This document shows positions 11,679 through 41,823 of a stretch of DNA of 64,000 nt, in pieces. Source of the DNA: Parasphingorhabdus litoris DSM 22379 (GTDB lineage Bacteria > Pseudomonadota > Alphaproteobacteria > Sphingomonadales > Sphingomonadaceae); contig NZ_CP086727.1 in assembly GCF_020906275.1 (NCBI RefSeq), forward strand, positions 2,790,001 through 2,854,000, in the 5' to 3' direction. Position numbers and translations under genes: made by a program. The notes beneath the pieces are model-generated. The model was not told where the DNA came from, made no database searches, and worked only from the letters and a program-made list of their open reading frames with translations. How positions within the stretch are numbered: position 1 is the first letter of the stretch; each line of letters opens with the position of its first letter.

Positions 11679-11862
11679 ATTCTAGACCTTAAAATTATTT
11701 AGAGGGTTCATATCTATTTATGCCGTAAATTAAGCCGAATTAGAACAGCCGCTTTGGGAGCAGACTTTGGTATTTGTATAGATTGGCAACCAGGAGAGGA
11801 AGCCGATTCTCAACTGTAAACTTGAAAAACTTTAGAAGCAGAGCTGTTCAGGATTTACTGCT

Positions 11863-11889
11863 GTGATAACATCATTATCACGATTTTTT
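11863..11889. promoter_or_regulatory. Perfect palindrome GTGATAA-N5-TTATCAC followed by a T-run
   Basis: A 7-bp perfect inverted repeat (11863-11881) followed by GATTTTTT. It could be a weak intrinsic terminator, or the operator of the TetR gene whose remains begin about 55 bp downstream. The sequence alone does not separate these. The rest of the 265-bp gap from 11679 shows no gene. Confidence 0.4.
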
Positions 11890-11944
11890 GGGAATTATCA
11901 CTTGAATCGAACAACTCACGTCAAAAGCGAAGAGGAGATTTAGC

Positions 11945-12250
11945 CCTGAAGTCCGTCGGTCCATGAAACTCGACAGCGCAGCGCAATTGATCGCAACAGA
12001 TGGCATGTCAAGGCTTTCGATGGAAGCCATTGACCAGAAGGTGGATGTCAGCAGATCGCTGATGTATAAGTATTTTATTAGCCTATCGCACCTTTTTAGA
12101 GAATTGCTGAAACGTGAGCTAACCATCCGGTAGAAACATCAAGTCGCTGTGGCGGAAAAAGCCAATACATTTGAAGAACTGGTTCGCAGTACAACGCATG
12201 TCTATCTCAGCTCTCTCTACATGAGGCAAATTCCCGACACTTGCCAATGA
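11945..12250 (+). pseudogene. TetR-family regulator pseudogene
   Basis: The frame from 11945 reads KLDSAAQLIATDGMSRLSME and continues through AIDQKVDVSRSLMYKYF, the classical TetR helix-turn-helix, then FRELLKRELTIR and a TAG stop at 12131-12133. Past the stop the same frame continues KHQVAVAEKANTFEELVRSTTHVYLSSL, which lines up with the intact TetR at 38860-38201 (LDREYRHLRTKQLEAAESAG, TYEDLVRKVTRAYLLYIEE). So a nonsense codon splits the gene, and the rest is lost or unrecognisable up to about 12476. It is convergent with the TonB-receptor remnant, as in the intact locus. Confidence 0.75.
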
Positions 12251-12476
12251 AAGCACCAGCATATCATCCGAGTGTACTTTTTGTTTCCTCAGCATTTTTT
12301 TGACGAAGACTCGATCACCCTGCCTCCAGATAATCTGCGCCATCATGGTCACTCGCGCATTTATCCTTAGGAATTTCTCCGAAACTTTTCATGTTTAATA
12401 ACGCTCCCAGAGGTCAAAAAATAGCCCTATACATAAGATCCCAGGCTGTCCTCGGAGAGAAGCTAATTTCTAGTCA

Positions 12477-13193
12477 TCAAAAGCGGATGGTCGCTTCAAC
12501 CCCATAAGTGCGCGGTTCCAAAATAACGAATTCCCGGAAACGCCCGACTAGTCGCCCAGCCGAGAGCGCACGCGTAATGTCATCATTGTTGAACAGATTC
12601 TTCACATATCCGCGGATTTCCGAGTTGCCGCCATCAGGTGCGAGCAGCAGCTTGAGATCGGTCTGGCCATAGCCATCAAAAATATCGATCGGCTTGCTGA
12701 AGATCGAACTTGCAAATTCGCTCTGTAGATAATGGTCGATACGCGGGGTCAATACCCAATCGCCTACCGGGATTTCATATTGCGCCCCAATCGCGATCTT
12801 GATGTCAGGGGAAAAGGGTAGAGAATTCCGATCAACATCCTTCAGCACACCCGCGGCTGTGACGTCAGCATCAACCGTGCCCGGCGCAGAACCAAAAGGA
12901 TCGGTTTCATCGATCGAAGCAAAATCTCTCACCCCGGCATTGAGGTAGGAGAAGCTGCCGTCAACTTGAAAACGATCGCTCGGACGAACGGCAAATTCTG
13001 CTTCGACGCCTCAGACTGTGGCGTCTGTATTAACCGTCAGTGCGGCAGTTGCGGTCGTTTGACCGATTTGCAGATCCTTATGGTCATAGTAAAATGCCAA
13101 CACGCTTCCAGTGAAACTGCCATCGATTGATGAATCCTTGATTCCTACCTCGAACGCATTCAGAAATTCGGGATCAAGGAAGAAGCCAGTGAT
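12477..13193 (-). pseudogene. TonB-dependent receptor pseudogene (C-terminal third)
   Basis: The minus frame starts mid-barrel (GFFLDPEFLNAFEVGIKDSS) and runs through beta-barrel strands (FTGSVLAFYYDHKDLQIGQT, GVEAEFAVRPSDRFQVDGSF, IRGYVKNLFNNDDITRA) to the terminal strand and final Phe (EPRTYGVEATIRF). A TGA at 13013-13011 stands where receptors have the Trp of the common ATVWGVEAE motif. The N-terminal plug and most of the barrel are missing: the sequence breaks at 13193 into a PQQ-dehydrogenase fragment on the other strand. An open piece from 12932 to the end remains but is unlikely to be functional. Confidence 0.85.
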
Positions 13194-13530
13194 ATGAGTA
13201 GTTCTGGCCCGTTTAACTTGCGCTCTGGCATTCCTTATGATGTCGGAGCGACAATACGTGCTGGCACGTTGACAACGCGCGGCAGTCTAACTTTCCTAAG
13301 CTCCACCATGGACAGCAAGGTCCGGGCGTTTGATATTCGGACTGGTGAAGCAAAATGGAAAGCGGATTTGCCTAGCAACGGACAATCCACGCCAATGTCT
13401 TATCGTGATCGTTCCCAACCCAACCTGGCGATACCCCAGAGACCTTGCGGCAAACCAATATCTCGACTCGTAGGATGTGCGATATGGCAAAGGCGCCTAT
13501 GTAATTGCCTATGCATTAGACAAAGATTGA
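13191..13530 (+). pseudogene. PQQ-dependent dehydrogenase pseudogene (C-terminal fragment)
   Basis: From 13194 the frame reads MSSSGPFNLRSGIPYDVGAT and on to TPMSYR, about 75% identical by hand count over 71 residues to the C-terminus of the intact quinoprotein gene at 31113-33599. Then a short deletion shifts the frame. The other frame continues VIVPNPTWRYPRDLAANQYL, a TAG, then YGKGAYVIAYALD and a stop at 13530, again matching the intact C-terminus. The fragment is thus broken by a deletion/frameshift and a nonsense codon. It directly abuts the TonB-receptor remnant. Confidence 0.88.
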
Positions 13531-13919
13531 ACCCTAACCACGGATTGATTTCGTCCAAATCCAGCGATACCAAAAAAATAGGAAAAAATGTTGCGCGGTG
13601 CAGTCTTTCTAGAACGGGTCTAGCGCAGTTTTCCCTGTTGCTTCGCTTTTGCAGGGAAATAGATCCAATCTTCCGCTTTGTTGATCAAAGGCACACTATC
13701 AAACGCATGAATATCTAGGAATTCAAGGCTCAACATCGAAGATCTTCTCCCAATAATAATAGAGAAGCATAAACGCATTAACAGGAAAATATTCTCTGAA
13801 TAACAGAGAATTCGAACCAAACCACAGGCTGTGTTTGGTATGTCATTCTGCCAGATGCGGGAGCCAACATATGTTATAGAAGCAGCATAACCAGCAACAA
13901 TTCGAGATATTTTTGCCAT

Positions 13920-14090
13920 TAGCGGCGTCGCACTTCTTGATCTTATAGCCTGGGAGCCTGCTAGGTATGTCGAAGGCTCTCCAGCCTAAAGGTCGTAGGC
14001 ACCGACTTGCTCGGTTTACTAACTCCTCGATCACCAAGGATCAGGTGTGAAGTCGAAAGCGGAGGCGTACCGTGGACGACTTCCGGAGAG
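13920..14090 (-). ncRNA. Candidate structured leader RNA, copy A
   Basis: On the minus strand GCCTA (14000-13996) can pair with TAGGC (13988-13984), followed by the GGCT-GGAG-AGCC hairpin. The equivalent stem in copy B is CCTAA/TTAGG, so both sides have changed together. The outer long-range stem of copy B (CGGGGAGC with GCTCCCCG) is only partly kept here. Conservation of non-coding sequence directly before an ATG suggests a leader or antisense element. No known family is recognised. Confidence 0.35.
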
Positions 14091-14310
14091 ACACATAACG
14101 TGTCCAGAGGAACGATATATAAAGAAACCAGCATATGGCACCAGGATTCAAAAGGTTGCACGCAAGAAATGGACGACAGTGGTCGGTGGTTGCTGGATAT
14201 AAATGGCAGTGTTCGAAAGCTCATCGGAAAGCACGTGGCCGTTGAGGGTAAGCGTATCGAGTTTGATCTGATCTATGTCGACCGGATTTGGCATCTAGGA
14301 AAGCTATTGC
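14041..14310 (+). pseudogene. DUF5818-family remnant, copy A
   Basis: The frame reads GRWLLDINGSVRKLIGKHVA followed by VEGKRIEFDLIYVDRIW, which resembles the core of DUF5818 proteins of sphingomonads (an OB-like small domain). The codon that should be ATG, judging from copy B, is GTA at the start of GTA-CCG-TGG-ACG-ACT. The C-terminus runs into unrelated sequence and IS-derived DNA. An open frame persists from 14007 to 14483 but crosses the junction, so it is not a natural gene. Confidence 0.5.
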
Positions 14311-14379
14311 GACGGATTTGGTTGACCGGCTCAAGGACCGGAAGATGCATCACGTACGGTGGGCATCTTTTACAGGACG

Positions 14380-14640
14380 AAGATCGAGAGATGGCATCAG
14401 ACCCTCACAAACCGCACCTTGCTGGAAAACGATTATCTGCCAGACGTTCTGAAAAAACAGGTCGAGGCGTTCGTCGAGCATAAAAATCACCGCCGCTACC
14501 ACTAAAGCCTGAAAAACGTAACACCTGCCGATACCTACTTCGGCAGGGCAGCATCAATCATCAAACAACAGATAGCCGCTTGCTTCATCAAAAACAAGCT
14601 GCTTACTATCAACCAGACGATGCCAAGCACTCATCAAAGT
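14380..14640 (+). mobile_element. IS3-type transposase remnant (integrase-core C-terminus)
   Basis: The frame beginning at 14380 reads KIERWHQTLTNRTLLENDYL, then VEAFVEHKNHRRYH, a TAA, and SLKNVTPADTYFGRAASII. This is the C-terminal signature of IS3-family integrase-core transposases (KIERWHQTLKNRI...; YNHxRYHESLxNVTPADxYFGR). The stop replaces the Glu of RYHES, so the element is dead. No terminal inverted repeats were found, and the N-terminal catalytic part is missing. Confidence 0.8.
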
Positions 14641-14730
14641 GAAGAACGCATCTGCCTCACCAACGCTGACGGGGAACAGTTATTTGCAATAAATCCAGTT
14701 TGTTGATTTCTTATCGTATTCGAGCTGATA

Positions 14731-24044: not shown

Positions 24045-25430
24045 CTACCGCGGTCTCCTACCATTGGCATTGCCTCTTCCGGGGTTGCTATCATCAAAGC
24101 CATCCGGGTCATTGCCATGGCCGTTGTTGCCATCATCATTGCCTTTGCCTTTTCCGCCGCCTCTGCCGGGATTGCTTTCGTCAAAGCCATCATCGTCGTT
24201 ACCGTGGCCATTATTGCCATCGTCGTCCCGATCGTCATCGTCCAGATCATCATCATCCCGATCATCGTCATCCCGGTCATCGTCGTCCCGGTCATCGTCG
24301 TCCCGATCATCGTCATCCCGGTCATCGTCATTACCCTGATCGTCATCGTTCTGATCATCTTCACCTTGGCCCTGATCGCTGTCGTTCAGGTCACCTTCGC
24401 TCTCATCTCCAGTATCCTGACCGTCATCGCCCTGACCTTCGTCATCCTCGCCTGTATAGCCTTGATTGTCATCTTCCAGGTTATCATTAACCTGATCGTC
24501 ATTGCTTTGATCAGTATTTTCGTTTTGCTCGACATCACCTACATCATGATCATCGCTTGTGTCAGATTCTTCGTCGCTAATATCGTCGTTCGTATCTTCA
24601 AGCACATCGGCCGCAAGTACGCCGATGGATTCTTCTGCGTTCTCGACTATGACAAATCTGTTATAATCAACGTCACCACGGATAAGGCCGTTGGTTAACT
24701 CTGCCAACTCAACCCCTTCTTCACCAATCGGCACCGAGACCGCACCCGACAAGTTGGATGAGGGAAGCGTGATGCTCGCCACGTTTGAAGATGCTGAAGA
24801 TTGTGCAGAGGTGGTTGTTACATTTTCATTCCCTGTCGTGTTTGGTTTGTTCGGGGATTCGATCACCCGGCGCTCGCCATCCAATACCACCAGACTGAAA
24901 GGATCATTGGCATTGATCATGCCGATCACGCCTGGGGTGACCAGTTCGGATGCACCATCATCCAGTGTGGACACCTCGACAGCCCCTTCCGTGACCTGCA
25001 CGGCAGAGCCTTCGGCACTTACTGAAACGCTAAAGGTGGTCCCTTTGACAACAGCCGCCATATAAGGCGTTTTTACACCGAAATGCGGTGTTTCCTTCTT
25101 GTCGATCCGGAACAGAACATTACCGAAATATTCGATGATCTGCGTGATCTTACCACTTTTCTTTGGTTCGGCGATTTCGATATGGCTAGCGGGTGAAACC
25201 ACCAGATACTCACCGCCGCGCAATAATACAGCGCGTCCCTTTGGACCGGTTTTGATAACATCACCGGGTGCCAGCTTAGTCTGGCGCTGTGCGATTTTTA
25301 CAACCCCTTTACGCGCTATCGTAACATTTCCGCTGATTTCGGATACCTGCCAACCCGGGGCGCCGGCATAGGCAGCACCGCTCGATAGCAATGCTGCGAC
25401 AATAAGTGATTTGGTAATCGGACGGCGCAT
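24045..25430 (-). CDS. Exported FecR-domain protein with Asp-rich repeat tail
   Basis: 461 residues. A signal peptide ending AYAGAPG precedes a FecR domain (residues 27-150: VSEISGNVTIARKG, LAPGDVIKTGPKGRAVLL, GNVLFRIDKKETPHFGVKTPYMAAVVKGTTF). An acidic linker follows, then a run of DDDDR repeats and two GNNGHGNDxDGFDxSNPGRG units. FecR domains of this kind are periplasmic or surface sensors or scaffolds, and the acidic repeats probably bind calcium. It is divergent from the TpsB gene and upstream of the CHASE2-EAL gene on the same strand. The tail may be exported, but no type-1 secretion signal is proved. Confidence 0.88.
   Translation of the reverse strand: MRRPITKSLIVAALLSSGAAYAGAPGWQVSEISGNVTIARKGVVKIAQRQTKLAPGDVIKTGPKGRAVLLRGGEYLVVSPASHIEIAEPKKSGKITQIIEYFGNVLFRIDKKETPHFGVKTPYMAAVVKGTTFSVSVSAEGSAVQVTEGAVEVSTLDDGASELVTPGVIGMINANDPFSLVVLDGERRVIESPNKPNTTGNENVTTTSAQSSASSNVASITLPSSNLSGAVSVPIGEEGVELAELTNGLIRGDVDYNRFVIVENAEESIGVLAADVLEDTNDDISDEESDTSDDHDVGDVEQNENTDQSNDDQVNDNLEDDNQGYTGEDDEGQGDDGQDTGDESEGDLNDSDQGQGEDDQNDDDQGNDDDRDDDDRDDDDRDDDDRDDDDRDDDDLDDDDRDDDGNNGHGNDDDGFDESNPGRGGGKGKGNDDGNNGHGNDPDGFDDSNPGRGNANGRRPR
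24219..24340. repeat. 15-bp tandem repeats encoding DDDDR units
   Basis: The segment repeats a 15-bp unit close to CATCGTCGTCCCGGT about eight times with third-base variation. On the minus strand it codes for the DDDDR run of the FecR-domain protein. The copies differ mostly at synonymous sites, so the protein repeat is kept while the DNA drifts. Long plus-strand ORFs over this region come only from this low-complexity composition. Confidence 0.8.
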
Positions 25431-29206: not shown

Positions 29207-29660
29207 GTGGTTAGCATCGTTCATGAACGCGTTGCATCCATCGCCAAAGTCAAAGCTAATATTGTTGCAGCTTTTATCATGCCATCTGTGGCACACGCTG
29301 AAACCATAGCGGCATCAGCAGTCTCTGCTCCAGCCGGCGAGACTCCAATTGTATTCGAGTCGAATGCCGAGGACCGAGTAGACGCATTTTCAGGCACACT
29401 GCAGGTTAAGGAAAACCATGATGATCACAGCAGCAGGTTCATGACACTTCGTTATGTCCGGTTCCCGGCGACCGGCGACGCACCGGGTTCTCCTATTGTC
29501 TATTTAGCAGGAGGCCCCGGTAGCTCCGGCATAGCAACTGCGAAGTGGCGGTGCTTTCGGGTATTCATGGCAATGCGAGAATTCGGCGATGTCATTGCAT
29601 TTTATCAACGTGGCACTGGCATGTCCAATGACGTTCCTCTGTGCAAGTCACCATCGGAAT
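29207..29660 (+). pseudogene. N-terminal fragment of an exported S33-type alpha/beta hydrolase
   Basis: From GTG 29207 the frame gives a putative signal sequence and then LRYVRFPATGDAPGSPIVYL followed by AGGPGSSGI, the oxyanion-hole region of peptidase-family S33 (proline-iminopeptidase/TAP-like) hydrolases. Then come FGDVIAFYQRGTGMSNDVPL. At about 29650 it breaks into a sterol-desaturase sequence, losing the nucleophile elbow, Asp and His. It cannot be an active enzyme. Confidence 0.8.
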
Positions 29661-30000
29661 TTTCCAACACGCAAATATCGATCTGAAGCTCGGCGTCTGG
29701 GAATATATCTTCTCAATCGGCGACAATTCAATCGACGACAATTACCACTATCCCGACAAGGGTGTTGATGGCAGCAATTATGGCGGTGAGTTTATCATCA
29801 ATGAAATCCTGTTCGGTACCTTCCACAAGGTGAAAGGCGAACGCCCGCACGATCATATCGGCATCGGCACCGCGCCCAATTATCCGATGACGTTTGCCGG
29901 ACTGCTGATCGCACCGTTCCTGAGGGACCAAAAAATATTTGGCGGTGAGGGTGAAACAACCAGGGATCAGGCCGCCAGCAACCTAAAAAATTACTTATAG
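29641..30000 (+). pseudogene. C-terminal fragment of a fatty-acid hydroxylase/sterol desaturase
   Basis: Starting at 29641 in another frame than the hydrolase fragment, the sequence reads GIFQHANIDLKLGVWEYIFS, then NYGGEFIINEILFGTFHKVK, then HIGIGTAPNYPMTFAGLLIA. This is the C-terminal part of the sterol-desaturase family (FQHANI ... NYGGxLIxxDxxFGTF). The HRxHH metal-ligand box normally found between them is missing (NSIDDNYHYPDKG stands there). The N-terminal membrane helices are absent. It has been joined end-to-end to the S33 hydrolase fragment by a deletion. Confidence 0.8.
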
Positions 30001-30072: not shown

Positions 30073-31116
30073 GTGTCTTGGATAAAACGTATCGGAATAT
30101 CATTGCTATTGGCGGTTCTGTTGGGCGGGTCGGGCACCTATATTTGGGCAAAGCTGCCGGTCACGGTCGACCGGGAAAAGGCGGATGCTGCTGTAGAACT
30201 GCTTGCTAACCGGTCTGTTGGCGAGCTTGGCTACAAAGAGGGGTATTTCGAGCATGAAGGCCGCTCGCTTCACTATGTCGAAGCTGGAACCGGTGAACCC
30301 ATTGTGTTCTTACACGGTTTCCCATCTTTCTGGTTCTCATTTTTGCGTCAAGTCGAGCATTTCGGTGGCGACTACAGGGTGATCGCAATTGACGGGCTGG
30401 GTGCTGGAAAGTCAGACGCGCCATCCAACGTAGAGGCGTATCAACTGGAAGCGATGGGCGCGCATCTCGCCGCGCTGCTGGATCACCTTGGCGAAGAGCG
30501 TATCCACATTGTCGGGCACGACTGGGGCTCGGCCTTCGCCATTGGTTTTGCGCAAAGCTATCCGGACCGTGTGCTGTCGGTGACCGGGATCAGTGCTCCG
30601 GCGCTCAATGCCAGCCTTCATGCGCTGGAGGTGGATCCCAAGGCGCGTAAAAGTGCTGCTTATGTGGAGCGTTTCAAGCGCGCCAATCCGCCGCTTTTGG
30701 TCCTGCTTGGAACGGCCGCTTCGATATATGATGGCGCGTATCGGCCCTTGGTGGAAGATGGCAAACTGTCACCCGATGAAGGCACGCTCTTCCGGAATGG
30801 GACGAGCGATGCGAAGCGCACCAACGCCCATATCAACTGGTATCGCGCGAACATTCCCCATCCCGACGATTTGAGTGAAACTGACTTCTGGCCTTCTCGT
30901 GATGCGCGTGTGACCGCACCTGCGCTATATATCTGGGGTGACGACGATCCCATTTACAACAAGGTAGCGATGGATCGGCTTACGATATTATCGGACCAGT
31001 CACGCATGGTCACGTTTCCAGGGGTCGGTCACTGGCCGCATGTTCGCAGGGCTGAGGAGGTGAATATAGCAATGGCCGAGCATATCGCAGCAGCCTCGCC
31101 GGCCAATGCAGACTAA
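30073..31116 (+). CDS. Membrane-anchored epoxide-hydrolase/haloalkane-dehalogenase-like enzyme
   Basis: 347 residues with a GTG start and AGGGA upstream. An N-terminal anchor (IGISLLLAVLLGGSGTYIW, residues 7-25) is followed by an alpha/beta-hydrolase with oxyanion motif FLHGFPSFWFSF, nucleophile elbow GHDWGS (Asp150, not Ser), a late acid in WGDDDPIYN and catalytic His320 in GVGHWPH. An Asp nucleophile points to epoxide hydrolase, dehalogenase or fluoroacetate-dehalogenase chemistry through an alkyl-enzyme ester. It is convergent with the PQQ dehydrogenase with a 4-bp overlap (31113-31116), and probably belongs to the same catabolic locus. Confidence 0.88.
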   Translation: MSWIKRIGISLLLAVLLGGSGTYIWAKLPVTVDREKADAAVELLANRSVGELGYKEGYFEHEGRSLHYVEAGTGEPIVFLHGFPSFWFSFLRQVEHFGGDYRVIAIDGLGAGKSDAPSNVEAYQLEAMGAHLAALLDHLGEERIHIVGHDWGSAFAIGFAQSYPDRVLSVTGISAPALNASLHALEVDPKARKSAAYVERFKRANPPLLVLLGTAASIYDGAYRPLVEDGKLSPDEGTLFRNGTSDAKRTNAHINWYRANIPHPDDLSETDFWPSRDARVTAPALYIWGDDDPIYNKVAMDRLTILSDQSRMVTFPGVGHWPHVRRAEEVNIAMAEHIAAASPANAD

Positions 31117-33599
31117 TCCTCCAGCGCGTAAGCGATGACATATCCCCCTTTGCCGTCAACAACAGCCTGAGAATCGATATATTGGTTTGTCGCTGGATCA
31201 CGCGGATAGCGCCAGGTTGGATTGGGCACGGTAACAATCAGATATTGTTTCCCGTTTTGCCGTGAACGATAGGTCATGGGCGTGGCCAAACCGTTGCCGG
31301 GCAGCTTTGATTCCCACTTAACCTCGCCGGTGCGAAGATCATAGGCGCGGACTTTTTCATCCATGGTGGAGCTTAGGAAGGTAAGGCCGCCACGTGTTGT
31401 CAGTGTACCGGCACGCACCGCCGTTCCCACTTCATAGGGGATACCGGACCGGATGTTGAATGGTCCAGACTGGCTCATGTCCCCTGCTGGACGGCTCCAC
31501 AGCAATTCCTTGGTATTGAGGTCGATCACCGCAATTTGCGACCATGGTGGTTCAAAGCATGGAACATGGGTTCCGAGCCGCGACATGAATGGCTGCGGAT
31601 AGCCATAGGCAGAGATCCGGCGGAAGTCGTATGGATCGTTTGGATCAGGATCACCTAGCTCGGGTATCGGTGCGTCATCCGTGTACCGGACATTCGGATG
31701 GTTCGGCCCCAGCACGAATTGCGCAATCGGCCCCGCTTCGGCAACCTGTTCCTTGGTCACCATACTCAGTCGGTGCGCGAGCATCATTGGCGCGGCGACC
31801 AGCAGACCGTTATCGGCATCGACAGACACACTGCCCCAGTTAAACCCGCCGAAATTGCCCGGATACAACATCGTCCCCGTCTGGGTGATGCCGGTCACCA
31901 TCGAAGGAGGTGTATACATGCCCTCATAGTTCATCGTGCGGTATTCGATCCGGCAGGCCATCTGGTCGATTGGGGTCAGACCCCACATGTCCTTTTCGTA
32001 GCGATAGGGATGAAAGTCCGGCAGTGGCGAGTCAGGCTGTGTCGGTGAGAGTTTCTCGCCCGGCACGTCGCTGCCCTGCGGGACCGGAACCTCAGGGATC
32101 GGGTGAACGGGTGTCCCATCGCGCCGATCAAGCAGGAAGATATCGCCCATCTTGGTCGGTACCGCGACCGACGGGACCAGTTCGTCTTTGAGGCGCACAT
32201 CAACCAGCACCGGTTGTGCGGGCACATCATAGTCCCACACATCATTATGGACTGTCTGGTATTTCCAGCGTTCTTTCCCCGTAGCAGCGTCTATAGCCAC
32301 CACTGCTGAAGAGTATTCTTCTTCGAACTTCCTGCGAATGCCGCCGAAATAATCCGGTGGAGGGTTACCGGTCGGTGCATAGATCAGGCCCAATTCAGCG
32401 TCATAACTCATGATCGACCAGACATTGGGCGTCCCTGGCGTGTAGGTCTCACCTTCAGATGGAAATCCGTTGTTGTCCGGATTGCCGAGATCCCAGGCCC
32501 AACTTAACTTACCGGTCATCGCGTTGAAAGCGCGAACCACACCCGACGGATGGCCCAGATTCTGCGTGTCCGCGACTTGGCCGCCAACAACCAGATTGTC
32601 GCCCGCTACCAGCGGAGACGAGGTTACCCAATATTCAAACCGTTCATGGTTGTCACCCATTCCTTTCCAAAGATCGACAACGCCATTTTCGCCGAAGTCG
32701 GTGCACAGCTCTCCGGTGTCGGCGTCAACGGCAAGGATGGTCGCGTCGACCGTCGAGGTGACGACCCGTTTTGCACATTGTCCGGCGTAGCCGTCGGGGG
32801 CTTCGTGGTAGCCGACCCCGCGACATGTGCGCGCATATTGATTTTCCATTGGCGGCTGAATGCCATGATCGTAGCGCCAGATTTCCTCGCCCGTCGCGTC
32901 GTCGATTGCGATCATCACGTTTCGTGCCGTGCACAGATATAATCTGCCGTCAATGTTCAGCGGGGTGGCCTTGAAATCCTCTTCCACGCCGGTGCGATAA
33001 CGCCAGACTTCTCTCAGTCCGCTGACCGTGTCGGCGTTAATGTCTTCAACCGTGGCGAAACGCGTGCCGCCTTCGGTGTTGCCATAGTGGCGCCAGTCAT
33101 CGCTGGCTGCCACGGCATCACCGGACCGGATCGTACCTTCGCCATTCCGGACATAATCCTGCATGCTGGCCAGCAGCAGAACCGCGATGGAGGCGAGTGA
33201 CGCACCGCCAACCCACCATCTATTTGCCGGCTGCTTTGATGTATCTTGACCTTCGTCGCTGGCAGGAATGCGAAGCGTTTGGCGATACCAGGGCGTCAGG
33301 AACCAGATGCCGAGGCCCAGCCACATCGCCAGCCTCGGCAGTAATCCGAGGAAGTGCAGCTCAGCCTCAAAGATCGACCAAATCAGCGTTACACCAAGAA
33401 TCGCCGCAAAAAATTTGGGGGCCTTGTCGCTGCGACGAAACACAAGGACGCCAACCGCTATGGTCGCGATCCCTGCCAATAGATAATAGGGGCTGCCACC
33501 AAGATAGATCAGGAAGCCGCCACCCAGAGTAAGCAACAAACCGATTAACCCCAGCAGGAGGATGAAGACCCAATGCAAAACACTCGACAACCTCATCAT
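31113..33599 (-). CDS. Membrane-bound PQQ-dependent dehydrogenase (glucose/quinate/shikimate type)
   Basis: 828 residues. The N-terminal ~155 residues have five hydrophobic segments (VFILLLGLIGLLLTLGGGFL and so on), as in membrane glucose dehydrogenase. The remainder is an eight-bladed quinoprotein propeller with tryptophan-docking repeats (ATGEEIWRYDHG, TGKERWKYQTVHNDVWDYDVPAQP, TKELLWSRPAGDMSQSGP). It oxidises a polyol, sugar or alcohol in the periplasm and passes electrons to ubiquinone. A dead copy of its C-terminus lies at 13.2-13.5 kb. The substrate is not decided by sequence alone; the gene set suggests a cyclic alcohol as well as sugars. Confidence 0.93.
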   Translation of the reverse strand: MMRLSSVLHWVFILLLGLIGLLLTLGGGFLIYLGGSPYYLLAGIATIAVGVLVFRRSDKAPKFFAAILGVTLIWSIFEAELHFLGLLPRLAMWLGLGIWFLTPWYRQTLRIPASDEGQDTSKQPANRWWVGGASLASIAVLLLASMQDYVRNGEGTIRSGDAVAASDDWRHYGNTEGGTRFATVEDINADTVSGLREVWRYRTGVEEDFKATPLNIDGRLYLCTARNVMIAIDDATGEEIWRYDHGIQPPMENQYARTCRGVGYHEAPDGYAGQCAKRVVTSTVDATILAVDADTGELCTDFGENGVVDLWKGMGDNHERFEYWVTSSPLVAGDNLVVGGQVADTQNLGHPSGVVRAFNAMTGKLSWAWDLGNPDNNGFPSEGETYTPGTPNVWSIMSYDAELGLIYAPTGNPPPDYFGGIRRKFEEEYSSAVVAIDAATGKERWKYQTVHNDVWDYDVPAQPVLVDVRLKDELVPSVAVPTKMGDIFLLDRRDGTPVHPIPEVPVPQGSDVPGEKLSPTQPDSPLPDFHPYRYEKDMWGLTPIDQMACRIEYRTMNYEGMYTPPSMVTGITQTGTMLYPGNFGGFNWGSVSVDADNGLLVAAPMMLAHRLSMVTKEQVAEAGPIAQFVLGPNHPNVRYTDDAPIPELGDPDPNDPYDFRRISAYGYPQPFMSRLGTHVPCFEPPWSQIAVIDLNTKELLWSRPAGDMSQSGPFNIRSGIPYEVGTAVRAGTLTTRGGLTFLSSTMDEKVRAYDLRTGEVKWESKLPGNGLATPMTYRSRQNGKQYLIVTVPNPTWRYPRDPATNQYIDSQAVVDGKGGYVIAYALED

Positions 33600-33637
33600 A
33601 TAATCCCCTTATCCTCAATCACGCTGCTGCTCCCCGC

Positions 33638-34396
33638 TTAGAGTGGGAAGATCGACGCACCTCCGTCGAGCACAATGCCTTGGCCCGTCATGAAATCGCT
33701 TTCACGCGATGCCAGGAAGACTGCAATGCCCTCCATGTCTTCGAACTCACCAATTCGGCCTATGGCGGAGCGACGCCGTGCAGCATCCTGAAATTGCTGA
33801 CTGGTATCAAGGGACATTTCTGTCTCAATAAAGCCCGGCATGATCGCATTGACGCGAATGCCGGCTTGCCCAAGCTCCATTGCTATCGCCTGTGTCAGGC
33901 CGATTACGGCTGCTTTGGTGGTAGAATAGCCCGCGGCACCGCCGCTGCCGACTTTTGCAGCAATGGACGAGGTGACGATCAATCGACCGGGAATTTTATT
34001 CGCGACCATATAGTCACTGACAGGCCCCCAGGTCTGAACAACGCTCATCAGGTTCAGATCGATCGTGTCGAGCCAAGTCTGTCTTCCAACCTGACTGGAC
34101 AGTCCGCGAAAACCCCCGCCGCCCGCATTGGCGAAACAGCTATCGACTTTACCGAAGCGCTCCAGCGTCTTAGCGAATGTTTCGGCGATAGCCGCTTCGT
34201 CAGTGACGTCACAGGCGTAGGCCTCCACATCACCACCCATAGAGCGAAGCTCTTCAACCGCAGCAGCATTTTTCTGCTCGTTGCGTCCCCAGATTGCGAC
34301 TTTCGCGCCAGCTTTCACCAGCCCGCGACAATAAGCCAAACCGAGCCCACCGTTTCCGCCGGTTACTATGGAAACGTGGCCTGAAAGATCGAACAT
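33638..34396 (-). CDS. SDR-family oxidoreductase in the PQQ/TonB locus
   Basis: 252 residues, a classical SDR: VTGGNGGLGLAYC cofactor loop, CDVTDEAA, CFANAGGGG, the catalytic Ser in IVTSSI, active site YSTTK, and MTGQGIVLDGG at the end. It lies 38 nt upstream of the PQQ gene and 14 nt downstream of the VOC lipoprotein on the same strand, so the three are one operon. A likely job is to oxidise or reduce an intermediate of the compound taken up by the nearby receptor. Confidence 0.93.
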   Translation of the reverse strand: MFDLSGHVSIVTGGNGGLGLAYCRGLVKAGAKVAIWGRNEQKNAAAVEELRSMGGDVEAYACDVTDEAAIAETFAKTLERFGKVDSCFANAGGGGFRGLSSQVGRQTWLDTIDLNLMSVVQTWGPVSDYMVANKIPGRLIVTSSIAAKVGSGGAAGYSTTKAAVIGLTQAIAMELGQAGIRVNAIMPGFIETEMSLDTSQQFQDAARRRSAIGRIGEFEDMEGIAVFLASRESDFMTGQGIVLDGGASIFPL

Positions 34397-34410
34397 TTTT
34401 TTAAAACCCC

Positions 34411-35469
34411 TTATTCTATACCGTTATTTTTGAAATTGCGTGATGAGACAAAGGAATCTGTCGGCGCGGTTTGAAGGCCGAGTAGATTCCCATCCGGGTC
34501 ACGGCCAAACATGATTTGCCCGCCATCCATCGGAGTGGGTTCTGTCTCGATTGTGCCTCCGGCTTTCACCAGCAATTCGCGCGCGGCGTCCATGTCAGAC
34601 ACATCGAAAACAATCATATTATAGCCATTGGCGTCAATCGGGCGGGGCGCCGCCCGATCCTCTGTCGGATGGCTATGGAATTGGAACATCTCCAGTTCGA
34701 GATTGCGAATCTGGAACCAGGCTGCCTCGCCAGAGGTTCCTTCCAAACCGCTAACCTTGTCCGATTTTTCTCCTTCCATACGGAGGAAGGGCCACTGGCC
34801 GAATCGACGGAACTTTGGCTGACCAAGAAACTTCGCATAAAAGTCTGACAGACGGTCTATATCTGGTGTCGCAAGTGCAACGTGCCGAATGCGGTATTTG
34901 TTTTTTGGCGGTTGTGGCAGGTCAAGCTGCGTCACATCGACATGCTCTATCTCGGCGATCAAGCCGTCAAAGTCTCGCGAATACGAATAATATACTGGAT
35001 TTTTTGGGTTCAGCTGCTGCATTTCCTTCTCGCCCATGAACTGGGCTCCGCCAGTGAGAAATTTTTGGTAAGCCTGCGTTTCCTGATCGACCTGATAACA
35101 GACATGCATGATCCCCGGACCCTGCACAGCCATATGTGGAGTGTTTTTGGCTTCTTTCGACGGACTTGCAAAAGACATAAAGCGGACCTGCGCATTGACG
35201 CTCCGCATCATTCGGGTTTGCGCCTCAACATCGGTGCGCCCGGTAAGCTGATCGAAGTTGGCGTTCTGTTCAATTACGCTATCGTCAACCTGTTTGAGGT
35301 CCATCGCATCTTCGTAAAGTTTGGTGGTCTGGTCGAGATCGCTCACGGTGGCACCTACCCATCCCACACCCTTTATAACTGAGTCCTCGGGTAGTTCTGA
35401 GGTCTGTACCCCGCAGGCGCCAAGACCCAGGGTGCCTGCTATCACAAGCGGTAGCTTCGATGTTTTCAT
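34411..35469 (-). CDS. Lipoprotein with two VOC (glyoxalase/dioxygenase-like) domains
   Basis: 352 residues from ATG 35469, which has GGGAG upstream; an in-frame GTG at 35487 would precede a poorer start. The lipobox LGAC gives a lipid-modified Cys19. Two VOC modules follow: VGWVGATVSDLDQTTKLYED with HVCYQV and IEHVDV, then RIRHVALATPDIDRLSDFYA with IRNLELEMFQFH and FGRDPDGNLLGLQ. Metal-ligand His/Glu positions are plausible (HVCYQ, IEHV, HVALAT, EMFQF). An extracytoplasmic VOC protein is unusual; it may bind or ring-cleave the substrate. It is divergent from the TonB receptor. Confidence 0.82.
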   Translation of the reverse strand: MKTSKLPLVIAGTLGLGACGVQTSELPEDSVIKGVGWVGATVSDLDQTTKLYEDAMDLKQVDDSVIEQNANFDQLTGRTDVEAQTRMMRSVNAQVRFMSFASPSKEAKNTPHMAVQGPGIMHVCYQVDQETQAYQKFLTGGAQFMGEKEMQQLNPKNPVYYSYSRDFDGLIAEIEHVDVTQLDLPQPPKNKYRIRHVALATPDIDRLSDFYAKFLGQPKFRRFGQWPFLRMEGEKSDKVSGLEGTSGEAAWFQIRNLELEMFQFHSHPTEDRAAPRPIDANGYNMIVFDVSDMDAARELLVKAGGTIETEPTPMDGGQIMFGRDPDGNLLGLQTAPTDSFVSSRNFKNNGIE

Positions 35470-35502
35470 TAGCTTCTCCCATGCCACTAGCGCCCGATCG
35501 CG

Positions 35503-35518
35503 ACGAGTGATTGCTCGT
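35503..35518. promoter_or_regulatory. Candidate TetR operator (ACGAG-N6-CTCGT)
   Basis: A 16-bp imperfect palindrome, ACGAGTGATTGCTCGT, lies between the divergent VOC lipoprotein and TonB-receptor starts. Twelve of 16 positions are symmetric. The TetR encoded at 38860 lies just past the receptor, and TetR operators of this shape are usual at such divergent promoters. Binding is inferred. Confidence 0.4.
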
Positions 35519-35655
35519 TCAACTCTATCAGCATTATTGAATATATTTACTAAAAGTCAACATCACATACGATTTGGCTTGAAAAATTCTAAGTATGGAG
35601 GCATCTGCGAGCCTGAAGTAAACAAATATATAACTTAAAGCAGGAGAGGAAAACT

Positions 35656-38169
35656 ATGAAAATCGTTAATCGTGCTATGTTGGCCGGAGTCAGTAGCGTT
35701 GCGCTTTGTGCCGCGCCTTCTGCGGCCTTTGCGCAGGATGCAGATAATGAAGAGACTTTTGACGACAACCTTATTGTTGTCACCGCTTCAAAGCGTCAGG
35801 CAACGTTACAGGAAACGCCGATCGCTGTATCTGTAACGACTGCGGCACAAATTGAGGATGCGCAGGTGCGCGATTTGATCGATCTGCAAACGCTGACGCC
35901 CTCGCTTCGAGTGAGCCAAACCAGTCTTTCATCTGTCACCAACTTCATTATCCGTGGCTTTGGTAATGGAGGGGCTAATCCGGGCATAGAGCCGTCCGTT
36001 GGCGTTTTCATCGACGGCGTGTATCGCTCACGCGCGGCGGCACAAATCTCCGATTTGCCAGATCTCGAACGTGTCGAAGTCCTGAGTGGCCCGCAATCGA
36101 CGCTGTTTGGCAAAAATGCTTCTGCCGGAATCATCAGCATTGTCACCCAGGAACCGCAGTTCGAGTTCGGCGGCGTCGCTGAACTCTCTTACGGCAACTA
36201 TGATGCCGTGGCGGCCAAGGCCAGTATCACCGGTCCGTTGAGTGATACGCTGGCCTTTAGTCTTGGCGGTAGTTACAACCGGCGCGATGGCTACATTGAA
36301 GACATTATTATCAATCAGGATATTAACAATCGCAATCGTTGGGGCGTGCGCGGGCAGCTATTATTTCAGCCAAACCCTGATGTCAGTTTCCGCCTGATCG
36401 CTGATTACGACAAGATTGACGAAGTATGTTGCGGAGCGACCAATGTGGTCGATGGCCCAACCGGTGCAATTGTGCGCGCAGTCGGAGGTCAGTTCATACC
36501 TAATGACGGATTGTCACTCCAAAGTACGGTGAACTTCGCACCCACCAACAAGATCGAGAATTACGGTGTGTCGCTTCAGACAGACTGGTCAGCAGGCGCG
36601 ATTGATATGACCGGGATTGGCGCTTACCGACGCTCGGATAGTTTTGTGAATCAGGATAGCGATTTCACAAGTCTCAATTCAATTGGCACCAATATCAATA
36701 CGGTCGATATCCAGACCTATACAGGCGAATTGCGCGCAGCTTCTGATTTTGATGGTCCGCTCAACTTCCTCGTGGGCGGCTTCCTGTTTCACGAAACGAT
36801 TGATCAAGGCGCCGAGTTTGGAAACGGTGAAGGCTTTGTTCTGTTTGCCAACGCAGCCACAGGCGGTGCCTATAGTGCTCTAGAACCAACATTGCGCGCG
36901 CTCATACCCGACATTCCGGAAGGCAGCTTTGGCGGTGTTGGACAAGGCCGTATGCTCGATTATGATTACGAGAACACCTCATTTTCTATCTTCGGTCAAC
37001 TGGACTTTGAAATTACCGACGGACTAACCCTCACGGTCGGCGCTAACTATACTGAAGATAAAAAACAGGTGGTTTCGAACAATATCAGTACCGATGTTTT
37101 CTCCGGTATCGATCTTGTCCAGGCCGGGTTCAACGCGGCAATCGCACAGGGTGCTACCCCTGCACAGGCCAGTGTGCTGGCTTCGGATCTTGACACCAAC
37201 CCCTTCCTTGCACTTCGGGGGTTACAGTTCAATCCACCTTATCTCAATTTTCCGAATGCGGTTGAAGACGGCCGCACTGACGATAAGGATCTGTCTTATA
37301 CATTCCGTCTCGCCTATAATGCATCAGATAATCTGAGCCTATATGCGACTTATGCAACCGGGTTTAAGGCATCGTCTTTCAATCTGTCCAACGACAGCCG
37401 CCCGTTTGCAGCGGACTTCGTACCAGGCTCTCCCTTCCAGTCTCCGCCGCCCGCTGCATCACCGATTCGGGATGCAGGGCTTGCCGTACCAAATCTCAGA
37501 ACGGGATCGCGCTTTGCGGGACCAGAAGAGTCGGAACTTTATGAAATTGGTATCAAGGGGCGCTGGGATGGCTTCTCTTTCAACCTCGCCCTGTTCGACC
37601 AGACGCTTGAAGGGTTCCAGGCCAATGTCTTTACGGGCACTGGCTTCATTCTAGGTAATGCTGACGAACAATCCGTACGCGGGTTTGAGCTCGACGCAAG
37701 TATTTCGCCAATTCCGGAACTGACTTTCACAGCTGGCGTGACTTATCTCGACTCTGTTTTCGACAGCTTCCCGGACGGGAATGCGCTTTCGCCAAACTTT
37801 ACTGTCATACCCGCCGATCTTAGCGGAGAGCGCCCGGCAGGCGTACCGGAATGGTCGGTAGTGGTTGGCGGCACCTATACGGTTGTTATCGGCGACAGTA
37901 CGTCTTTGCGATTCCACACTGATTATCAGATGGAGAGCAATGTCGCGCTTGTGAATGGCTTGTCCAACTTCAAACGTGCCGTAGAAAACTTGAATGCATC
38001 AGTCACTCTGGGCCTTTCAAACGGTCTTGAACTGTCACTGTGGGGGCGGAACCTTACTGATGCGGCGTATCTCAACGCGGTCTCACCTGCTGTCGGTCAG
38101 CCAGGTTCACTTGTAGGTTTCCGCAATCAGCCGCGAACCTACGGCGGTCTGGTACGTTTCCGGTTCTAA
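35656..38169 (+). CDS. TonB-dependent outer-membrane receptor
   Basis: 837 residues, full length. AGGAGAGG gives a strong ribosome site. A signal peptide (MLAGVSSVALCAAPSAAFAQ) is followed by a TonB box (DNLIVVTASKR), a plug domain (ETPIAVSVTTAAQIEDAQVR ... IRGFGNGGANPGIEPSVGVFIDGVYRSR ... VEVLSGPQSTLFGKNASAG) and a 22-strand barrel that ends QPRTYGGLVRFRF. In sphingomonads such receptors import large or hydrophobic organics as well as siderophores. The neighbours (VOC, SDR, PQQ dehydrogenase, epoxide-hydrolase-like) point to a carbon compound. A dead copy of the 3' third of a related receptor lies at 12.5-13.2 kb. Confidence 0.95.
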   Translation: MKIVNRAMLAGVSSVALCAAPSAAFAQDADNEETFDDNLIVVTASKRQATLQETPIAVSVTTAAQIEDAQVRDLIDLQTLTPSLRVSQTSLSSVTNFIIRGFGNGGANPGIEPSVGVFIDGVYRSRAAAQISDLPDLERVEVLSGPQSTLFGKNASAGIISIVTQEPQFEFGGVAELSYGNYDAVAAKASITGPLSDTLAFSLGGSYNRRDGYIEDIIINQDINNRNRWGVRGQLLFQPNPDVSFRLIADYDKIDEVCCGATNVVDGPTGAIVRAVGGQFIPNDGLSLQSTVNFAPTNKIENYGVSLQTDWSAGAIDMTGIGAYRRSDSFVNQDSDFTSLNSIGTNINTVDIQTYTGELRAASDFDGPLNFLVGGFLFHETIDQGAEFGNGEGFVLFANAATGGAYSALEPTLRALIPDIPEGSFGGVGQGRMLDYDYENTSFSIFGQLDFEITDGLTLTVGANYTEDKKQVVSNNISTDVFSGIDLVQAGFNAAIAQGATPAQASVLASDLDTNPFLALRGLQFNPPYLNFPNAVEDGRTDDKDLSYTFRLAYNASDNLSLYATYATGFKASSFNLSNDSRPFAADFVPGSPFQSPPPAASPIRDAGLAVPNLRTGSRFAGPEESELYEIGIKGRWDGFSFNLALFDQTLEGFQANVFTGTGFILGNADEQSVRGFELDASISPIPELTFTAGVTYLDSVFDSFPDGNALSPNFTVIPADLSGERPAGVPEWSVVVGGTYTVVIGDSTSLRFHTDYQMESNVALVNGLSNFKRAVENLNASVTLGLSNGLELSLWGRNLTDAAYLNAVSPAVGQPGSLVGFRNQPRTYGGLVRFRF

Positions 38170-38182
38170 AGGCTCTCCGTCG

Positions 38183-38221
38183 AGACGCAGGGCAATGCAG
38201 TCATTGTCCTGCGTCTTTTTT
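38183..38221 (+). terminator. Intrinsic terminator after TonB receptor
   Basis: A GC-rich stem (AGACGCAGG pairing with CCTGCGTCT, extended by GCAATG/CATTGT) is followed by six or more T residues. It lies 14 nt past the receptor stop and in front of the convergent TetR stop at 38201. The reverse complement is also stem-like, so it may act on both genes. Confidence 0.8.
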
Positions 38222-38860
38222 GGTGGCTGACGCGCCAAGCACATAGGAGGGTGACTTTACCTTCAAATGTCTTCCAAACATGTCACCGCGCAAGCCATTA
38301 ACACTGCCAAGTATCATCGAGACGGTGATATCCTCAATCATCTGCCGGTCCATCCCGCTGCGCACAAGAAACTCACCCGCCGCGGCGGGTAGCCCGAAGG
38401 AAATCTCCGTTGCAGCAACTGCCACATCACGTGGGATGTCAAATAATTCAGCGGTTACCTCAGCGAAATATTCGACAGATGGTTCGCGATTATAATGGGT
38501 CGGGTTTTGGGCTTTGGCGATATTGGGATAGGCTTGAAGCCGATCAATAATGAGGCCGCGCTCTTCAATGTAAAGGAGATATGCGCGCGTTACCTTGCGG
38601 ACCAAATCCTCATAGGTGCCAGCGCTTTCTGCCGCCTCTAGCTGTTTTGTGCGCAAGTGCCGATATTCGCGATCCAGCAGCGCTTTCAGCAGCACAATAA
38701 GACTGCCAAAGTAGCGATACATCAGAGTTTTACTGACGCCCGCTTTCTCTCCGATGGCTTCCAGGGAAAGGTCGGCTGTACCCTGTTCAACAATCAGAGC
38801 AGCGGTGCTGTCGAGGATCATCGCCATACGCTTTTCGCGACCGAACCGGCGAGCTACCAC
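38201..38860 (-). CDS. TetR-family transcriptional regulator
   Basis: 219 residues from GTG 38860, the first possible start after an upstream stop. The N-terminal helix-turn-helix reads RMAMILDSTAALIVEQGTAD ... LSLEAIGEKAGVSKTLMYRYFGS; the C-terminal helical domain (ALLDREYRHLRTK ... VTRAYLLYIEE) binds an effector. It is convergent with the TonB receptor and probably represses it together with the divergent VOC operon. A split relative sits at 11945-12250 in the same arrangement. Confidence 0.9.
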   Translation of the reverse strand: MVARRFGREKRMAMILDSTAALIVEQGTADLSLEAIGEKAGVSKTLMYRYFGSLIVLLKALLDREYRHLRTKQLEAAESAGTYEDLVRKVTRAYLLYIEERGLIIDRLQAYPNIAKAQNPTHYNREPSVEYFAEVTAELFDIPRDVAVAATEISFGLPAAAGEFLVRSGMDRQMIEDITVSMILGSVNGLRGDMFGRHLKVKSPSYVLGASATKKDAGQ

Positions 38861-39109
38861 TACTGTTTTTTCGGTACCTATGGTTCTTCCAATCGTTGCG
38901 AGTTCTAGATTGCACCAGTCTCATTGGCGGGAATCGCTGCCCTTATCAAGCCCATAGCAAGACATTAAAGTGCCAAAGCTTTGATGATACATACGCAAAT
39001 GATCTAATTTTCTAAACGGTTGTAGTGCACTAAAAGGAGGACATTTGGTCTTTGGGATCTCAATTTTCGTTACCGCGTAGATAAAACTCGAAGCGGCTTA
39101 ACCAACTGC

Positions 39110-39345
39110 TTTACCATAGCTTTCCTGCACACCAAATCCGATCAACATTGATCAGATTAAATCCCATGCGTTTCACTTCAACAGCCACGCGTTTTCCGAT
39201 CAGTTTTCTAACATTGCCGCTTATATCAAGCATCTACCGGCCACCGCCGTCCACTTCCAATGCATGGCCCAATGGCGCCCGGCGCAATATGCCGGTTTCT
39301 CTATGTATCATTTCTTTTGGCATTTCCGGTTTCCGCGGAAGTCGT
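39110..39345 (-). pseudogene. DUF5818-family remnant, copy B
   Basis: The minus strand reads GGGR, a TAG, then MLDISGNVRKLIGKRVAVEV followed by KRMGFNLINVDRIW, the same DUF5818-like core as copy A. The TAG replaces the Trp of GRWLLDI, and a frameshift separates the 5' part (ATG-CCG-CAG-ACG-ACT). It is therefore inactive. The DUF5818 label is by pattern. Confidence 0.5.
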
Positions 39346-39502
39346 CTGCGGCATGCCCCGGCTTTCGACTTCATACCCGATCCTTGATGATCGGGGAGCT
39401 AGTAAACCGAGCACGCCGATCCCTAAGACCTTTAGGCTGGAGAGCCCAGGACATACGTCGCAGGCTCCCCGACCGTGAGATCAATAAGTGCGACGCTATT
39501 AA
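39345..39502 (+). ncRNA. Candidate structured leader RNA, copy B
   Basis: Possible pairings: CGGGGAGC (39392-39399) with GCTCCCCG (39464-39471), CCTAA (39422-39426) with TTAGG (39432-39436), and a GGCT-GGAG-AGCC hairpin (39435-39446) that competes with the second stem. Copy A has a changed but still paired version of the second stem (GCCTA/TAGGC). The element ends directly before an ATG. This is a candidate only, with no known family match. Confidence 0.35.
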
Positions 39503-39633
39503 TGGCAAAAAGATCTCGAGCCGTACCCGGTCGTGCCGCTTCTGCATCATGCTTCTGTATCATATAGTTGCTCCCACATCTGGCAGAACGACATCCCAAA
39601 TACAGCCTGTGGCGCGGTTCGAATTCCCTGTAG

Positions 39634-41190: not shown

Positions 41191-41823
41191 ATGACATTCT
41201 CACAATTCGATCCTGCAGCACAAAATCGGGTGCCTTGGAACTTTGGAGTCAAAATTGGTCCTAAGCAACCGTTCAATCAGAAACAAATTTGGGCCATTCA
41301 ATTCTTCCTTGATCTGGAGAAACGCATCCGAGATCGAGCACTCTTTGACGTGGCAATCGACAGTAAGCTCAGGGGCTGTGACCTGGTGGAGCTCAAGATC
41401 GGCGATCTCGTCAAAGGTCCTGAAATACGAAAGCGAGCCGCGATCACGCAGCGTAAGATGGGACGGCCAGTTCAGTTTGAAATTGCATTGGATGCACGCG
41501 GAAGCCTATTTGCTTGGTTGGAACTGAGAGGTGGATCAGTCGAGGACTATGTCTTTCCAAGCCGTGTCGGCCATTCAAGACATCTGAGTACTCGCCAATA
41601 TGCAAGAATAGTTGATGAGTGGGTTGAAGCAATTGGTTTGCGACCTGAAGAATATGGATCACATTCGCTGCGTCGGACGAAAACCTCGATTGTCTTCAAG
41701 GCAACCGGAAACCTTAGAGCAATTTAGATCCTGCTTGGCCACTCCAAGCTAGAGAATACTGTTCGCTATCTAGGCGTCGATATCGAAGATGCGCTGACTC
41801 TCGCTGAGAAAACGGAGATTTGA
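41191..41823 (+). pseudogene. Small tyrosine recombinase interrupted by an amber codon
   Basis: AAGGAGA precedes ATG 41191. The first 178 codons hold the recombinase core: Arg61 in SKLRGCDL, Lys89 in QRKMGRP, and His158/Arg161 in HSLRRTK. A TAG at 41725-41727 follows, then the same frame continues ILLGHSKLENTVRYLGVDIE to a TGA at 41823, supplying the last His and the nucleophile Tyr. One C-to-T change (CAG to TAG) would explain the break. Without suppression the protein lacks its Tyr. The small size fits the orphan integrases common in sphingomonads. Confidence 0.9.

Follow-up and report, generated by a model that had tools for sequence, protein, structure and literature searches.

The 64-kb window analysed here, part of the 3.61-Mb, single-contig genome of Parasphingorhabdus litoris DSM 22379, contains a decayed locus at positions 11831-13543 made up of remnants of a TetR regulator gene (+ strand), an alpha/beta hydrolase gene (-), a TonB receptor gene (-) and a PQQ dehydrogenase gene (+). 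When 13 proteins of the window were used as tblastn queries against 11.7-14.2 kb, the PQQ dehydrogenase piece was matched at 13185-13412 (73.7% over 76 aa, E = 3e-33), close to the identity of about 75% counted by hand in the first-pass annotation, and resumed in another frame at 13384-13521 (71.7% over 46 aa, E = 2e-15). The TetR remnant was matched at 11933-12316 (42%, E = 9e-22), the hydrolase remnant by the window hydrolase at 30073-31116 (E = 2e-7), and the receptor remnant weakly at 13238-12480 (25%, E = 0.002). The hydrolase remnant (12206-12362, -) and a 540-bp inverted repeat described below had been overlooked in the first-pass annotation.

In DNA comparison with intact loci of the same genus, of a type termed A below, the relic resolved into four collinear pieces (approximately 11831-12217, 12202-12362, 12407-13177 and 13185-13543), with 68-81% identity in three finely aligned loci. 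Each piece gave E ≤ 4e-16 against three intact loci, so the similarities are far above chance. The TetR remnant (11831-12217) consists of the 5′ flank and the N-terminal half (DNA identity 74-79% to three A loci), its 3′ part being deleted; it contains a stop codon at 12131-12133 and lacks a start codon at the aligned place. The hydrolase remnant retains about 52 codons (68-77%). The receptor remnant (12407-13177) retains the last 232 codons and the 3′ flank (77-81%), with the N-terminal part deleted and a stop codon at 13011-13013. The PQQ dehydrogenase remnant (13185-13543) is the C-terminal end of the gene, with a frameshift of 32 bp net loss and a stop codon at 13471-13473 in the second frame. 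The four lesions described earlier were thus all recovered, and the lost TetR start, the 32-bp net loss and three large deletions were added to them. Relative to the three hydrolase-bearing intact loci L024, L025 and L028, the gaps between the pieces amount to 382-388, 840-875 and 5,902-5,921 bp; the relic keeps about 1.7 of 8.9 kb, approximately 81% having been lost through three deletions of about 385, 870 and 5,910 bp. The receptor and dehydrogenase tails abut at the junction of the largest deletion (about 5.9 kb; 13178-13190) because it took the first part of the receptor, the glyoxalase, the short-chain dehydrogenase (SDR) and the first part of the dehydrogenase. Two Pfam domains score above their gathering cut-offs, PF01011 with 61.1 bits in the remnant and 682.2 in the intact window enzyme (cut-off 26.7), and TetR_N (PF00440) with 36.9 and 42.4 bits (cut-off 24). 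The dead locus is real, and the case for it is stronger than first described.

The living locus, termed B, occupies 30073-38860 and comprises genes for an alpha/beta hydrolase (30073-31116, +; PF00561), a membrane-type PQQ dehydrogenase (31113-33599, -; PF01011; 72-74% identical to the A type), an SDR (33638-34396, -; PF13561), a glyoxalase/VOC-fold protein (34411-35487, -; PF00903), a TonB-dependent receptor (35656-38169, +; PF00593 and PF07715) and a TetR regulator (38201-38860, -; PF00440). The PQQ, SDR and glyoxalase products of A and B cassettes are 65-77% alike, whereas the receptors, which belong to different subfamilies, share 26-28%. In a scan of the window's intact enzyme, the best NCBIfam match of the B dehydrogenase was TIGR03074 (glucose/quinate/shikimate membrane-bound PQQ dehydrogenases), with similarity over residues 14-791; at 794.7 bits, however, it falls below the curated family cut-off of 832.65, and it differs further in sitting in a receptor/VOC/hydrolase/SDR cassette. 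Among solved structures, the enzyme matched only PQQ dehydrogenases of the general alcohol/methanol/glucose type and the glyoxalase gave a single weak match; neither pointed to a substrate. The pqqC model matched none of the 32 genus genomes, and likewise none of 14 control genomes. Just outside locus B, 29207-30000 is probably another broken gene; its ORF at 29641-30000 matches, with 69% identity over 115 aa, a portion of a 409-aa protein (L061 2523-3752) encoded near the stand-alone TonB_B receptor of genome G026.

Nine of 31 same-genus relatives have intact receptors that share 85-92% identity with the 151 residues still open in the receptor remnant and are surrounded by a cassette, A, of TetR, hydrolase, receptor, glyoxalase, SDR and PQQ dehydrogenase. 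Cassette A is present in ten Parasphingorhabdus genomes, five of which hold all six genes in the order of the relic; the tenth (G008) carries it without receptor and hydrolase (locus L059, C1:60001-80000). Five of the nine receptor-bearing A loci have the hydrolase as a full ORF, and about 290 bp of it are left in two of the other four (G023 and G026). As a separate observation, the same gene has been lost repeatedly, being missing or fragmentary in L026, L029, L030 and L032, and G008 has a hydrolase-like stretch on a contig other than that of its A cassette.

The first-pass annotation had taken the relic for a dead mirror copy of the locus at 31-39 kb. The mirrored order of TetR, TonB receptor and PQQ dehydrogenase, which holds for these three genes, and the match of all three families would agree with a duplicated copy, but protein identities make this reading highly improbable. 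Over 231 aa, the receptor remnant was 84-89% identical to the nine same-genus A receptors and 71-75% to six of other genera, versus 29% to the window's own. The first 76 residues of the PQQ remnant were 86-91% identical to ten same-genus A enzymes versus 74% to the window's own (also 86%, over 74 residues, to Kordiimonas 2-78). The TetR remnant was 79-84% identical in amino acids to eight same-genus A regulators, 70% to that of G008 and 49% to the window regulator at 38201-38860; the A regulator of G012 scored lower and was not among the best 14. For the hydrolase, a piece of only about 50 residues, identities were 45-60% to five same-genus A hydrolases versus 37% to the window's own, the lowest A value being approached elsewhere too (44% in a Sphingorhabdus MAG, 42% in the B hydrolase of G020, 42% in an Erythrobacter). 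These comparisons took the receptor nearest to the PQQ gene, which was the wrong one in some Erythrobacter loci; the right receptors were used in the receptor trees. The relic receptor's branch within the genus clade has a support of 83/64 only, and its placement there rests on identity. Furthermore, the B hydrolase lies beyond the dehydrogenase, i.e. at the opposite end from A, and the dispersed repeat also lies at opposite ends of the two loci. A segmental duplication of 31-39 kb was rejected since the remnants are not closest to the in-window copy. All four are nearest to one cassette type elsewhere in the genus, which favours separate acquisition; of the earlier suggestion of a duplicated or twice-acquired locus with one copy lost, the loss of a similar locus and its separate acquisition are supported, and the duplication falls. 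By its sequence affinities, the relic is the remains of a genus-type A cassette, not a copy of the living locus.

At the threshold used, a PQQ locus of this kind occurs in 12 of 32 genus genomes, nine with A and its receptor, one with A without receptor (G008) and two with B, one of which is the window genome with its A relic; 20 genomes (12 of the 24 good ones) have none. No genome has both cassettes intact, an outcome expected by chance about one third of the time by a hand calculation with ten A and two B among 24 good genomes, so that mutual exclusion of A and B is not established. A search with A-locus DNA found no other whole-locus A relic in the 32 genus genomes among the matches listed, many short ones being the receptor plug region or a palindrome. 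A candidate boundary of the A locus in G019, 35 bp long and situated at its TetR end (L024 12561-12596), was rejected, as it is this palindrome, dispersed in many genus genomes; copies of it flank tyrosine recombinase genes on both sides in G019 (C1:373-379 kb).

The relic was then compared with intact receptors at the codon level. Between the relic receptor and that of G019 (231 codons), dS was 1.28 and dN 0.064 (ratio 0.05), compared with dS of 0.99-1.21 and dN of 0.031-0.037 in seven intact pairs with G019, dN/dS of 0.026-0.039 in intact pairs, and dS of 2.65 and dN of 0.069 between the intact copies of G019 and G012. Against the other eight intact copies, dN/dS of the relic receptor was 0.025-0.056 (undefined for G013). 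At sites invariant in the nine intact copies, changes found only in the relic were distributed 9:7:16 over codon positions 1:2:3, versus 4:2:14 for intact G019 and 14:7:25 for intact G012. Decay is therefore shown not by the substitutions alone but by the deletions, the stop codons and the frameshift. The near-intact dN/dS values indicate that A was under selection for most of its time and that its death is too recent for a clear substitution signal; judged from these rates, the decay of A is recent.

All six B genes, in unchanged order, were found in Altererythrobacter lutimaris (TetR 83, receptor 86, glyoxalase 75, SDR 86, PQQ 89 and hydrolase 78% identical to the window locus), an uncultured Kordiimonas (82, 83, 84, 78, 86 and 72%, respectively) and an uncultured Erythrobacter (62, 79, 75, 82, 80 and 63%). 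Within the genus, G020 is the only genome besides that of the window with B (82, 85, 75, 79, 81 and 70%). The rpoB identities to the window genome are 83.9% for A. lutimaris, 75.9% for Kordiimonas and 99.2% for G020; that the B dehydrogenases of A. lutimaris and Kordiimonas are closer to the window's than rpoB is indicates that B was acquired by horizontal transfer. In the PQQ tree, the window B enzyme joined those of A. lutimaris and Kordiimonas (SH-aLRT 99) inside a five-row B clade (100), and a single clade for all 12 genus PQQ enzymes was rejected (p-AU 2e-44). Clade tests used 43 rows, with Ponticaulis left out, and three of the 45 loci (L112, L116 and L117) were kept out of the trees. 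Measured by these affinities, the living locus B is a newcomer, its nearest PQQ enzymes coming from another family and another order. DNA similarity to the two foreign loci spans window positions 30079-38894 and 30141-38876, hardly extending past the six-gene block and stopping within about 70 bp of its ends. The G+C content of B (54.2%, window 50.3%) is weak support, because intact A loci stand at 52%.

G020 B lies outside the group of window, A. lutimaris and Kordiimonas in both the PQQ and receptor trees, and its neighbours differ too; B therefore probably entered the genus twice. The G020 TetR, receptor and SDR are about as close to the window's as those of one or both foreign loci, and TetR and receptor identities alone would not show a second entry. 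A tyrosine recombinase gene (41191-41727, +; PF00589, E = 1.5e-12) lies 2.3 kb from the B regulator end, and a decayed homologue, in opposite relative orientation, lies at the same end of the A. lutimaris B locus. The closest recombinase homologues are elsewhere in G020 and in Erythrobacter 4-610, with none at threshold in Kordiimonas. tRNA genes lie near the B loci of G020 and Kordiimonas; the stretches from the window, A. lutimaris and Erythrobacter contain none. B may plausibly have been transferred by an integrative element.

The 540-bp repeat lies at 39092-39631, about 230 bp outside the B regulator, and in an inverted, 75% identical copy at 13803-14331, about 260 bp to the right of the relic. 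The left copy is followed by an element fragment at 14324-14659, probably a piece of an insertion sequence, which is repeated in several genus genomes; an ORF at 14007-14483, overlapping the repeat beside the relic, contains a DUF5818 domain. The mirror layout is no evidence for duplication, and the inverted repeat leaves room for inversion. Relic and B could once have stood in tandem in the same orientation, an inversion between the repeats having made the mirror layout, as suggested by their position some 250 bp beyond each locus and by G013, where a recombinase homologue about 570 bp from a CHASE2 homologue is nearer to the pre-inversion order. We consider this unlikely: the repeat family has five matches in the genome, itself included, the recombinase orientation does not fit cleanly, and the pre-inversion order was not found in any relative looked at.

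Cassette A is not tied to a single chromosomal site in the genus, its neighbourhoods differing between genomes, and the relic flanks were not found next to the same-genus A loci looked at. Of the six A genomes with a homologue of the FtsX-like gene at window 42876-45365, three (G013, G026 and G030) have it next to the A locus. The ShlB gene is a neighbour of the A locus in G016 alone, and in G012 a CHASE2 homologue (58%) is found about 2 kb away. As these neighbours vary between A genomes, the idea that B occupies A's native slot is no more than suggestive. The FtsX-like homologue in G020 (C1:2599066-2601540) has an in-frame TGA. In the window, 15-bp repeats at 24188-24461 encode an Asp-rich tract of a FecR-domain protein beside a ShlB-type transporter.

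Taken together, these observations make it probable that the relic at 11.8-13.5 kb is what is left of a cassette A whose place was taken by a foreign cassette B, now at 30-39 kb, acquired by horizontal transfer, after which A collapsed. Cassette A would have been the genus-type resident locus, under selection until recently, and B would have arrived by horizontal transfer from a pool common to Erythrobacteraceae and Kordiimonas. The two probably had overlapping jobs: an organic substrate would be imported through the TonB receptor under TetR control, oxidised by a presumably membrane-anchored PQQ dehydrogenase, and processed by hydrolase, VOC protein and SDR. With B in place, selection on A may have eased, and A may then have collapsed through large deletions. 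The comparisons establish what the remnants are, that they have decayed, that A was once under selection and that B has foreign affinities; the functional overlap, the succession of arrival and loss, the membrane anchoring and the class of substrate are inferred.

One locus probably took over from the other, and the order of the events bears on how this is read. Had A been lost for an unrelated reason and B acquired later, the history would be one of loss and re-acquisition, not displacement. This is somewhat unlikely; it is compatible with the sequence and with the frequent absence or loss of such PQQ loci in the genus, and G020 has B without an A remnant among the matches listed, but the low dN/dS of the relic receptor against the eight intact copies implies that the genome would have lacked a functional locus only briefly. 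Nor need A itself be native: it may have reached the window genome by transfer within the genus, given that A loci occupy different neighbourhoods in different genomes and the relic itself could have moved, that the relic receptor is nearest to G019 and rpoB nearest by path to G013 and G030, and that the PQQ tree does not hold the genus A enzymes strictly together. Against this, the nine intact A receptors of the genus group in a single clade (SH-aLRT 99), and the deepest members by rpoB (G012 and G008) also hold the deepest A enzymes; we therefore regard within-genus transfer of A as improbable. The preferred reading remains takeover of a resident A by B.

Xenologous gene displacement is the replacement of a native gene by a horizontally acquired homologue. 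The present case resembles it in that a resident version has been lost and a foreign homologue is present in one genome, the homologue having its affinity outside the genus and the genus-typical version surviving as pseudogenes; it differs in that a whole six-gene cassette is involved, with a receptor of another subfamily, and in that the resident's corpse is kept at another place. To our knowledge, evidence that a foreign equivalent has displaced a resident locus usually comes from trees only. In this genome, the lost and the living cassette are found within 30 kb of sequence, and A with its receptor is intact in nine genomes of the same genus. The natural set of genomes with A, B, A without receptor or no locus makes it testable whether receptor or enzyme decides the substrate, and whether the cassettes are redundant. 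A TonB receptor for a lignin-derived aromatic compound is reportedly from a sphingomonad. The likeness to such a receptor (PMC6874591) lies in a TonB receptor being tied to organic-compound catabolism, and is an analogy only. In the accessible parts of the literature searched, neither the A/B cassette nor its displacement was found.

In the receptor tree, the 15 A receptors grouped as a single clade (SH-aLRT 100), well apart from the B receptors, with a long-branch warning, whereas on the enzyme tree (43 rows) a single clade of A-receptor loci was rejected (p-AU 2.6e-9), indicating that receptors have been swapped repeatedly. At least five changes of receptor class were needed on the PQQ tree, with 30 of 44 loci classed as A- or B-receptor by limits of 40% and 70% that were chosen after the identities of the foreign B loci had been seen. 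The Sphingorhabdus MAG and Kordiimonas 2-78 combine PQQ enzymes closer to the A type with receptors closer to B, and interrupt the genus A enzymes on the PQQ tree; the branches placing them there have support of 87-93 only, so the number of swaps is uncertain. A tentative generalisation, which may well prove too broad, is that the PQQ dehydrogenase and VOC protein, usually with the SDR, form a portable oxidation kit that has repeatedly changed its TonB receptor for one of an unrelated subfamily, and that mobile B versions with their own receptor oust resident A, the genus having received B twice and the loser still being visible here. A third cassette type is found in P. marina (G012; L060 8.3-16.8 kb), with a B-like receptor, a hydrolase, a 628-aa protein with weak similarity (21%) to the PQQ enzyme, a glyoxalase and an SDR.
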